A stretch of DNA of 64,000 bases from Haloarcula laminariae. Its GTDB lineage: Archaea; Halobacteriota; Halobacteria; Halobacteriales; Haloarculaceae. The notes under the pieces were generated by a model. It did no database searches and was not told the DNA's origin. It saw only the letters and a list, made by a program, of their open reading frames with translations. This document shows positions 35,557-40,018 of the stretch, piece by piece. A program made the position numbers and the translations under genes. Position 1 is the stretch's first letter. Each line of letters begins with the position of its first letter. Location: contig NZ_JAMZFY010000002.1 of the NCBI RefSeq assembly GCF_025457605.1, positions 558,001 through 622,000 of the forward strand, read 5' to 3'.

Positions 35557-37374
35557 TCACTCGCTCGGAACGAGCGTCTCGCCGTCGAACTCGCCGTAGA
35601 CGCCGGTGCGGAACCAGTCGCCGCTGGTCGCACTGGCCATGACGTCGCTCGTCTCCCAGTACCGCTCGACGACGTGGGGCCCGCGGAACACGAGTTCCCC
35701 CTCGTCGGTCACGGCGACCTCGGTCCCCGGTAACGGCTCACCGAACGCCGACGGGAGCGACGACCCGTACGAGGTCACACAGCCGACGCCTGTCAGCCCC
35801 GGTTCGCCGAACACCTGGCTCACCGGGACGCCACAGCCCCAGAGGAACTCGACTCGCTCGGTGTCGAGGGGGTCGGTGCCCGACAGCGCGTAGTCGAGTT
35901 CCGAGAGCCCGAACGACTCCTGGAGCGGCGCGAACACGACTCTGGCGGCCGCGGAGTCGGTCAGGGACCCGCTCTTGCCCTCGGTGAAGGCCTTGCCGCG
36001 GTCCCTGGCGGCGCCGTCGGCGAGACGCCCCTTCAGGCCGCCCAGGTCGTCTATCTCCGCCTGCAGTTCGTCGGCTATGTGCTCGTACACGCGCGGGACG
36101 CCGACCAGGACGTCCGGCTCGACCGCCCGGAGCCCGGCGACGATGTCGTCGGTCGGGACGTAGGCGGCCGCGGCGCCGTTGTCCCACAGGTAGTACGTCG
36201 CCACGCGCTGGAAGACGTGTGCCTGTGGCACCAGACAGGCGCCGGTCGAGTCCCGGGTGAGCGGGAACTGCTCGCCGAGCATCGCCACGGCCGCGAGCAG
36301 GTTCCGGTGTGTCACGGCGTAGCCGAGCGTCTCCATGTCCCCGCTCAGCGGGGAGACGACGGTGGCCACGTCGGTGGCGGCGTCGTCGAACCCCGGCAGG
36401 GACTCCCGCTCCGCGGTGGGGAGCGCGTCGATGTCGAACACCGTCCCCGCGGCCTCCCTGACGGACTCGCTCGCGCTGTCGTCGACGACCAGCGCGTCGA
36501 CGCCGGCCGTCGTCTCGATGGCCACGGCCCGCTCGCTGCTCTGGTCGGGGTATATCGGGACCGAGACGATACCGGCGAGGTGGCAGGCGACGTCGACGAC
36601 CGACCAGACGTACGAGGACCGCGCACAGATGCCCAGCGACGTCCCGGGCTCGATGCCCGCTTCGAGCAGGCCGCCGGCGACCGCCCACGCCTGGTCGTAC
36701 AGCTCCCGGAACGTCCGCGAGGTGTACCCGTCCCCGTTCGGGACCAGCGCGACCGGCCGGTCGCCGTGGCGGTCGACCAGCCGCGCGAGCCAGTCGGCCA
36801 TCGACCCGTAGGGAATCGAGATGTCGCCGCCGACGTGGACGTCGCTCCCCAGGGCCACCGCCGTGTCGTCGGCCTCGTAGGTCCGTGTCGACTGTCGCGT
36901 CTTGTTCAGCTTGCCGGGCTGATACTCGTAGTCGTCGGGGACCGACTCGGCGTAGTACTCGCTGTAGTTCTGGTCCACGTCGTCGCCGCCGATGTGGGCG
37001 TCCAGCCACTCCTTGGTGAACTCCAGAATGTCGAGCGTGATCTCCTCGCCGTTCTCGTGGCGCTCGCGGAACTCCCCCACCGTCTCGACGAACTCCTCGT
37101 GGAAATCGCGGTGGTCGTAGAAACAGTCGGCACAGTCCATCGCGTAGCCACAGTCCTGCATGAACTCCTCCTCGTCGCCGAAGTGATACTCCGTGTAGCG
37201 TTCGAGTTCCTGGAGGATGTCGCCGACTGTCTCCTCGGAGTGGCCCTCATCGATAGCGACGTACAGGTCGTTCAGGAGACCGAACAGGTGTTTGTGCTGT
37301 TCGTCGAACCGGTCGATATCGGTGCTGTACCGCTCGTCCACCCACTCGATGAAGGCTCCGCTCGACTCGGCCAT
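35557..37374 (-). CDS. Hemerythrin domain fused to a degenerate AMP-binding (ANL) domain
   Basis: 605 residues. Residues about 10-135 are a bacteriohemerythrin with all diiron ligands: His27 (DEQHKHLF), His64 and Glu68 (YHFGDEE), His88 and His92 (DHRDFHEEF), His127 and Asp132 (AHIGGDD); three Cys lie in CGYAMDCADC. Residues about 185-605 follow long-chain acyl-CoA synthetases, but the ATP P-loop is lost (VVSPLSGDMETLGYAVTHRNL in place of TSGTTGxPKG), the A5 motif reads FGEPGLTG, the A7 Asp is Val (FRTGVYG), and the C-terminal subdomain is missing. It is probably a catalytically dead ANL domain under O2 or redox control. Confidence 0.88.
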   Translation of the reverse strand: MAESSGAFIEWVDERYSTDIDRFDEQHKHLFGLLNDLYVAIDEGHSEETVGDILQELERYTEYHFGDEEEFMQDCGYAMDCADCFYDHRDFHEEFVETVGEFRERHENGEEITLDILEFTKEWLDAHIGGDDVDQNYSEYYAESVPDDYEYQPGKLNKTRQSTRTYEADDTAVALGSDVHVGGDISIPYGSMADWLARLVDRHGDRPVALVPNGDGYTSRTFRELYDQAWAVAGGLLEAGIEPGTSLGICARSSYVWSVVDVACHLAGIVSVPIYPDQSSERAVAIETTAGVDALVVDDSASESVREAAGTVFDIDALPTAERESLPGFDDAATDVATVVSPLSGDMETLGYAVTHRNLLAAVAMLGEQFPLTRDSTGACLVPQAHVFQRVATYYLWDNGAAAAYVPTDDIVAGLRAVEPDVLVGVPRVYEHIADELQAEIDDLGGLKGRLADGAARDRGKAFTEGKSGSLTDSAAARVVFAPLQESFGLSELDYALSGTDPLDTERVEFLWGCGVPVSQVFGEPGLTGVGCVTSYGSSLPSAFGEPLPGTEVAVTDEGELVFRGPHVVERYWETSDVMASATSGDWFRTGVYGEFDGETLVPSE

Positions 37375-37435
37375 ACCGCCTGGTAAGCACTACGTACGAA
37401 AAGCGAAACCGACGATTCCCAGCCAGTGAAAACCC

Positions 37436-39205: not shown

Positions 39206-40018
39206 TCAGTTGACCTCGTTGTACATCTCGTCTATCATCTCGTCGAGGTCGGGGTTGCCGCCGCCCGGTTGCTGGGGCGTGTAGCTGAACTCGCCCTTGC
39301 CGTCGGGGGCCTCGCCCTGGGTCCACGGCTGTTCGGGGTCCGCGCGCTCCTCGCGGGCGGTGGACATGAACGCGTAGTTGAACTCCTGGTTCTCCTTTGA
39401 CTGGTCGAAGCTGTTCGGGACGGGCCGTTGCTCGCCGAGCGCGTCGAGGGCGGCGTGCCACTGGTTCTGGTGCATCGTGTCCCTGGCGATGAGGTATTCG
39501 AGCATGTCCTTCATCCCGGGGTCGTCGGTGAACTCGTAGAGCCGCGTCGCGAGCAGCCGACCGGTCGATTCGGCCATGATGTTCGCGTACATGTCGGCGG
39601 CGAGGTTGCCCGAGGCGACGACGTACCCCCCGGTGAAGGGGACGCCGTTGCTGTCGACCGGCATGGCGTGCAGTCCCGAGGAGAGCGCCTGTCGGGGCTG
39701 TCCGGAGCGCATCATCTCGTCGATGACGGCGTCCTCGCGGGCGGCCTCGCGGGCCTCGTCGGAGGCCCCTTCGAGGTTCTTCGCGACTGCCGTCGCGAGC
39801 ATCTCGATGTGCCCCAGCTCCTCGGTGGCCGTCTCCATCAGGAACTGCCGCATCTCCGCTTTCTCGGCGGGGACGGCGAAGGCCTGGAACATGTACTGCA
39901 GGGCGACGCGCATCTCCCCCTCGGCGCCGCCGATGGCCTGCTGGAGCATCTTCGCGAACTGTGGGTCGGGCTCCTCGACCTCGACCTCGAACTGGAGTTC
40001 GTCGTCGTGGTAGAACAC
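39206..40018 (-). CDS. Manganese-containing catalase
   Basis: A 270-residue ferritin-like four-helix-bundle protein that breaks down hydrogen peroxide with a dimanganese centre. The metal ligands are visible: Glu35 (AEGEMR), Glu67 and His70 (EELGH), Glu150 (MAEST) and His183 (DTMHQNQW). The last 70 residues are an acidic, Pro/Gly-rich tail typical of the family. The start is GTG at 40018, giving MFYHDDELQF. It is flanked on both sides by palindrome-rich gaps with shared motifs. Confidence 0.93.
   Translation of the reverse strand: MFYHDDELQFEVEVEEPDPQFAKMLQQAIGGAEGEMRVALQYMFQAFAVPAEKAEMRQFLMETATEELGHIEMLATAVAKNLEGASDEAREAAREDAVIDEMMRSGQPRQALSSGLHAMPVDSNGVPFTGGYVVASGNLAADMYANIMAESTGRLLATRLYEFTDDPGMKDMLEYLIARDTMHQNQWHAALDALGEQRPVPNSFDQSKENQEFNYAFMSTAREERADPEQPWTQGEAPDGKGEFSYTPQQPGGGNPDLDEMIDEMYNEVN

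Follow-up and report, generated by a model that had tools for sequence, protein, structure and literature searches.

The question raised by this locus is what a dead enzyme domain is for when it is fused to a diiron protein of the O2/NO type and has been kept across several genera after its ATP chemistry was lost. The gene in question lies in a 64,000-nt stretch of Haloarcula laminariae DNA that we analysed as a whole (hereafter, the window), and its RefSeq product name, 'bacteriohemerythrin', is given to the entire fusion and conceals an acyl-CoA synthetase-like (ANL) half.

A bacteriohemerythrin joined to a truncated ANL domain

The window ORF, confirmed at the coordinates first given, encodes a bacteriohemerythrin joined to a FadD/ACSL-type N-domain that has no P-loop and ends at the A8 hinge (Table 1). 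Pfam Hemerythrin (PF01814) matched aa 19-130 with 45.1 bits (cut-off 25.3) and AMP-binding matched from aa 200 with 132.4 bits (cut-off 29.9), while the NCBIfam bacteriohemerythrin model NF033749 scored 106.7 against a cut-off of 84. These two Pfam domains were the only ones found in 26/26 members, with none of the known output domains (MCP, GGDEF, HD-GYP, kinase). Structure prediction agreed with the domain assignment of the initial annotation: the AlphaFold model, built with 26 family sequences as input, had a mean pLDDT of 84 and showed a four-helix bundle together with an ANL N-domain modelled at high confidence. Its Foldseek matches were MenE and long-chain acyl-CoA ligases, with E values of about 1e-21 to 1e-23 (2.8e-23 among them) and mostly 14-20% identity. 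The linker between the two domains has conserved residues in the fusion alignment (Y137, Y140, Y149, Y151, P153, G154, L156 and R160).

Table 1. Features of the fusion gene and its promoter, in window coordinates
Feature	Position	Strand	Content or basis
Whole fusion gene, 605 aa	35557..37374	(-)	bacteriohemerythrin + linker + ANL N-domain
Hemerythrin domain, aa 8-135	36970..37353	(-)	Pfam/NCBIfam, ligand counts, four-helix bundle in model
Cys cluster C75-x5-C81-x2-C84, between helices 2 and 3	37123..37152	(-)	alignment, model
Linker, aa 136-190	36805..36969	(-)	invariant alignment columns
ANL (acyl-CoA synthetase) N-terminal domain, aa 191-605, without C-terminal subdomain	35560..36804	(-)	Pfam AMP-binding, Foldseek, tree
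Destroyed P-loop (A3), aa 341-358: SPLSGDMETLGYAVTHRN	36301..36354	(-)	motif alignment
Altered A5 motif, aa 520-528: QVFGEPGLT	35791..35817	(-)	motif alignment vs GYGxTE
Altered A7 motif, aa 587-593: WFRTGVY	35596..35616	(-)	motif alignment vs TGD
Operator-like palindrome GTTTTCActggctGGGAAT, beginning 59 nt ahead of the ATG	37415..37433	(-)	pattern search
T-rich run that follows the motif at 11-12 nt; weak candidate for a TATA box	37398..37403	(-)	column profile, inference

All seven diiron ligands that had been read in the window protein are there (H27, H64, E68, H88, H92, H127 and D132), the first six being invariant in 31/31 aligned fusions and the seventh being Asp in 26 and Asn in five. 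From the family score and the ligand set we identify the N-terminal half as a bacteriohemerythrin, with reversible O2 binding predicted. The three Cys first noticed between the helices and suggested as a possible source of redox response were present as described, in a loop modelled at low confidence (pLDDT <50, aa 76-83), but they are not specific to the fusion, since the cluster C75/C81/C84 is invariant in 31/31 fusions and equally in 4/4 standalone haloarchaeal hemerythrins. Judged from this distribution, the cluster is an old trait of this hemerythrin subgroup.

In the ANL half, the P-loop reads SPLSGDMETLGYAVTHRN where the canonical form is YTSGTTGxPKGxxLTHxN, and the protein terminates 12 residues past A7, where the A8 hinge would start. 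None of the 31 aligned fusions retains the first Thr, the Ser or the Lys of the P-loop (equivalents of Thr342, Ser343 and Lys350), and all of them have Leu, Val or Ile in place of the Gly ahead of the A5 Tyr. In ANL structures, that Gly lines the adenylate/substrate pocket. The C-terminal subdomain (A8, A10 Lys) is absent from all 31, as had been noted for the window protein; all stop at or before A8, and one (L006) extends briefly into unrelated sequence. The initial report of lost P-loop, A5 and A7 key residues thus stands for the window protein and, for the P-loop, across the whole alignment, but A5 and A7 are partly kept in other members, the A7 Asp in 15/31. The fusions have kept the His and Arg of A4 (His 386 in 28/31), along with many structural Gly and Pro. 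Catalytic relatives share 89 positions with a conservation of at least 92%, and 22 of these are retained in at least 90% of fusions (the reference held 25 catalytic rows, one of which, L155, is a 23-aa fragment with a small effect on the 92% threshold). Members from Halovenus and Salinibaculum come closest to canonical motifs, with YKLGTDKHPRGC and WYHTGDL, which suggests that the catalytic site eroded stepwise. The half therefore has the ANL N-domain fold by Pfam, model and Foldseek, without the P-loop, the A5/A7 motifs or the C-domain of the enzymes, and these losses make ATP-dependent activation by the fusions very unlikely on alignment evidence. A hemerythrin with a catalytically dead ANL domain is a well supported description of the whole family.

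We weighed whether the protein might still be an unusual ligase or adenylate-binding enzyme, either dispensing with a canonical P-loop or working with a separate C-domain. The fold is intact in the model, and the retained A4 His and, in some members, A7 Asp would fit such an enzyme; against these stand the missing P-loop Lys, the absence of a C-domain from every aligned member and an intact FadD-type paralogue elsewhere in the genome of the window, and we regard continued enzymatic activity as very improbable.

Distribution, origin and selection

A search for the same fusion in other genomes, proposed together with the initial annotation, found it at full length and without internal stops in 35/146 Haloarculaceae genomes. 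Among the named carriers are Haloarcula hispanica (pHH400; locus HAH_RS18715), H. marismortui (pNG700), Halorientalis, Halosimplex, Halomicrobium, Halovenus and Salinibaculum, and the nearest named relative of the window's genome is Haloarcula rara (70%). In a 391-genome sample of the class, every full-length match fell in the same genus or family, and a 393-genome sample of the phylum added, outside the family, ANL-only proteins alone; full-length fusions outside Haloarculaceae were thus absent from both samples, in which Methanococci were not searched specifically. An artefact of assembly, frameshift or gene calling is refuted by the 35 uninterrupted copies, which include ones on complete replicons annotated in RefSeq, and retains practically no probability; nothing speaks for it, the only damaged copies being the second one in genome G295 and that of Halomicroarcula sp. 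SYNS111. G295 carries two fusion copies (C1:67160-68632 and C1:3351870-3353687; L052, L053) with similar flanks, one of which stops at about residue 490, and the pair may be either a true duplication or an assembly-end effect.

In a tree built from 25 fused ANL domains and 24 intact ones, all fusions formed one clade (SH-aLRT 100), placed within a group that also holds the intact haloarchaeal ligases L029, L030, L031, L142 and L143, the branching order inside this group being unresolved. Judged from this tree, the fused ANL half has a single origin. These intact relatives possess the P-loop, together with A8 and A10 where those motifs were shown, and none of them carries a hemerythrin; homologues with an intact P-loop and C-domain, which had been named as evidence that would overturn the dead-domain reading, therefore occur only without hemerythrin and never among the fusions. 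Standalone ANL proteins with intact motifs were rejected as members of the same family, as they lie outside the fusion clade and have no hemerythrin. The fusion would have been made once, from a standalone-type bacteriohemerythrin and a FadD/ACSL-type N-domain that had lost, or was losing, its ATP chemistry.

Both halves are under purifying selection, which is weaker on the ANL half and weakest for the ANL half in the clade of the window. For within-clade pairs (Nei-Gojobori), dN/dS lay at 0.02-0.18 in the hemerythrin, leaving out one L041/L044 value with saturated dS, and at 0.11-0.43 in the ANL half, and for both the bootstrap intervals stayed well under 1. The ANL values were 0.11-0.14 in Haloarcula sensu stricto and Halovenus and about 0.38-0.43 in the window's clade, where the comparison genes gave 0.05-0.11 (ffh), 0.22-0.31 (surE) and 0.24-0.29 (a CBS gene), indicating that selection here still maintains the ANL half, though loosely. 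The SYNS111 ortholog (L048:6007-6402, L069:7330-7725) has lost its N-terminus and almost the entire ANL half, and its hemerythrin residues are joined straight to the last ~30 aa of ANL. Taken together with the faster ANL evolution, this deletion suggests that the ANL half may be dispensable in the window's clade.

These data bear on the possibility that the hemerythrin alone does the work, as an O2 store, scavenger or NO handler, with the ANL half as a passenger in slow decay. A hemerythrin dN/dS several-fold below that of the ANL half, the SYNS111 ortholog and the existence of a standalone hemerythrin with the same promoter palindrome (see below) would all be expected of a passenger. However, the low ANL dN/dS in Haloarcula sensu stricto and Halovenus, an open frame preserved in 35 genomes, the common domain boundary at which all 31 aligned fusions are truncated and invariant linker residues argue for a domain that is kept, and we consider the passenger explanation rather unlikely.

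Gene neighbours and a promoter palindrome

In most genera, namely Halorientalis, Halosimplex, Halovenus, Salinibaculum and Haloarcula sensu stricto, a gene for a flavin split-barrel (PPOX) protein lies head-to-head with the fusion (HAH_RS18710 in H. hispanica), and the genes outside this pair vary. The PPOX neighbour has ~144 aa, matches Pyridox_ox_2 with 54.1 bits and is named 'pyridoxamine 5'-phosphate oxidase family' in RefSeq. No PPOX partner stands beside the fusion in the window's clade, and the window's genome has distant PPOX paralogues only; here the fusion is located near ffh and surE, with ffh upstream at a distance of 61 bp (window) or 24 bp (H. rara). A conserved ffh operon was ruled out, as ffh is not adjacent in G301 and G368, and the other genera examined do not have it next to the fusion. 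The window also has a manganese catalase (PF05067, 274.9 bits; 39206-40018, minus strand) beyond ffh, two genes upstream of the fusion.

Standalone hemerythrins were found by Pfam to adjoin protoglobin-MCP (HemAT-like) transducers (L074:5061-7127, L075:7107-9164), and in SYNS111 a similar transducer beside a standalone hemerythrin is split into two overlapping ORFs, possibly by a frameshift (L070:5198-7464).

At 58-60 nt before the ATG, 25/30 fusion promoters carry the palindrome RTTYYCA-N6-GRGAAY (three of the 25 begin with C), a count that is descriptive only, since the pattern was derived from the same promoters, the other genes behind the palindrome providing the independent test; in resampled fusion promoters (shuffle control), the mean was 0.013 and the maximum 1. 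The copy listed in Table 1 is the sole match in the window, where 0.01 was expected. Predictions of bacterial-type promoters and terminators were set aside, as they carry no information for archaea. We scanned nine genomes with this pattern and, as a control, with the same pattern reversed, and obtained 95 palindrome matches against 5-6 reversed ones, perfect dyads being counted on both strands (palindrome/reversed: G000 11/1, using the pattern without its leading R; G084 14/1; G230 22/0; G302 3/1; G337 7/0; G154 17/0; G333 10/2; G149 5/0; G085 6/0).

The palindrome of the fusion promoters is new here, and reading the genes behind its sites in related genomes by gene calling and Pfam/NCBIfam showed that it recurs before nirK, nosL, genes for a ba3 oxidase and for Ahb heme synthesis, ctaA and standalone hemerythrins. 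The last were found behind it in G000 and in SYNS111 (G333). Other G000 sites precede nirK with an upstream 455-aa protein, a divergent TIGR04053 radical SAM protein, the siroheme decarboxylase AhbA/B, an AhbC-like pseudo_SAM_Halo protein, DoxX and a KaiC-like protein. In H. hispanica the sites lie before SHOCT, a NosL/HTH region, a multicopper oxidase and DUF7521, and in Halorientalis G230 before NosL, a COX2/COX1 oxidase operon and CtaA, as well as a DUF7521-like and a halocyanin-like protein that were both recognised from the sequence alone; one in G302 is ahead of a DmsR_N-HTH_10 (DmsR-type) regulator. Sites homologous to that of the window are L179, L183, L185, L186, L194, L198, L199, L200 and L206, and some matches fall within genes or ahead of unrelated ones (for example, L177, L182, L187, L190, L209 and L210), probably by chance or for reasons we cannot explain. 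Two further observations concern proteins beside the palindrome: the 455-aa protein between it and nirK (L179:3294-4661) has no Pfam/NCBIfam match and by eye resembles an NnrS-type membrane protein, and small membrane proteins of DUF7521 type recur next to it (L202, L203, L205 and L183, Pfam-checked for L183 only).

As AhbD is required only for anaerobic growth in Haloferax volcanii (PMC5746218), the heme genes behind the palindrome belong to the anaerobic pathway. The fusion genes share the palindrome with this set of respiration, denitrification and heme genes, for which it is a candidate operator of an undescribed regulon in several Haloarculaceae genomes, and the fusion therefore probably serves low-oxygen or nitrogen-oxide metabolism. 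Such a candidate regulon, tying together terminal oxidase, denitrification and anaerobic heme genes, matters since haloarchaeal regulators of these genes are poorly known.

A tentative role and comparison with known systems

Our preferred reading, which we hold with a little less than even confidence, is that the fusion, as a diiron protein, handles O2 or NO in low-oxygen respiration and that the attached ANL domain is a scaffold or docking module without catalysis. Its synthesis would be switched on by low oxygen or denitrification; the diiron centre would bind or consume O2 (or NO) and might be kept reduced by a flavoprotein such as the PPOX neighbour; and the dead ANL domain would act without catalysis, as a scaffold or docking surface. 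Pseudoenzyme domains usually persist by binding or scaffolding something. Counting against this reading are the missing PPOX neighbour in the window's clade, the Asn as seventh iron ligand in five members, and the faster evolution of the ANL half in that clade with its deletion in SYNS111.

The initial annotation had instead proposed a new type of oxygen sensor, in which the dead domain binds a lipid, acyl-CoA or nucleotide. In the form we considered, the hemerythrin would sense O2/NO, alter the binding of an acyl group, lipid, nucleotide or protein by the dead ANL domain, and so relay a signal. Hemerythrin domains are common sensor modules (PMC9388753), the standalone relatives lie beside transducers as described above, and MCP and DICT genes flank the SHR40 fusion. 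This MCP/DICT neighbourhood is not conserved across fusions, however, and both the lack of a known output domain and the destruction of the ATP site, with its A5 Gly replaced in 31/31, sit poorly with the proposal, which we judge rather unlikely; the promoter element and the gene neighbours point to respiration, denitrification and heme genes, not to signalling by lipids. Quite unlikely, too, is that the fusion represents a new O2-/NO-responsive pseudoenzyme, whose diiron state would control docking of the dead ANL domain on a respiratory partner, or its binding of a hydrophobic ligand, within the undescribed palindrome-marked regulon. The role of the dead domain is a directly testable question in Haloarcula hispanica (HAH_RS18715).

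The pairing itself, initially thought undescribed, had already been reported in one clause of a 2016 hemerythrin survey (Alvarez-Carreno et al., PMC4919030), which lists O2-binding Hr with AMP-binding in long euryarchaeal 'Methanococci' sequences; no paper describing the fusion further turned up in the literature searched. The domain pair is identical to that of the haloarchaeal fusion, but the survey assigns it to Methanococci, a placement that we could not bring into line with our own searches, and its main text gives no sequence analysis, dead-enzyme reading or context; the clause may or may not concern this family.

With the bacteriohemerythrins of NF033749, McHr (4xpx) and DcrH-Hr (2avk), the fusions have in common the full ligand set, the four-helix bundle and a score above the curated cut-off; they differ in a loop five residues longer with three invariant Cys, in the attached ANL domain and in the Asn at ligand 7 of five members. 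With FadD/ACSL-type synthetases, nearest among them the five intact haloarchaeal ligases, they share the N-domain fold, the clade and a largely kept A4 region, but unlike these enzymes they have no P-loop, have replaced the A5 Gly and have no C-domain in any aligned member. As in the hemerythrin-coupled sensors Hr-MCP, Bhr-DGC and Bhr-HD-GYP, the diiron domain occupies one end of a longer protein, though unlike in these no recognised signalling output domain follows.

For the promoter, the nearest published counterpart is the haloarchaeal denitrification motif of NarO, CGAA-N4-TTCG / CGAAYATDKTYG (PMC5746218, PMC10062603, PMC11218638). It was ruled out as the fusion-promoter element, having no matches in the 30 promoters, and RTTYYCA-N6-GRGAAY was not found in the haloarchaeal denitrification-promoter literature searched. 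Both palindromes stand ahead of denitrification and heme genes at a similar distance from the ATG, but that of the fusion differs from the NarO-type motif in sequence and spacing.
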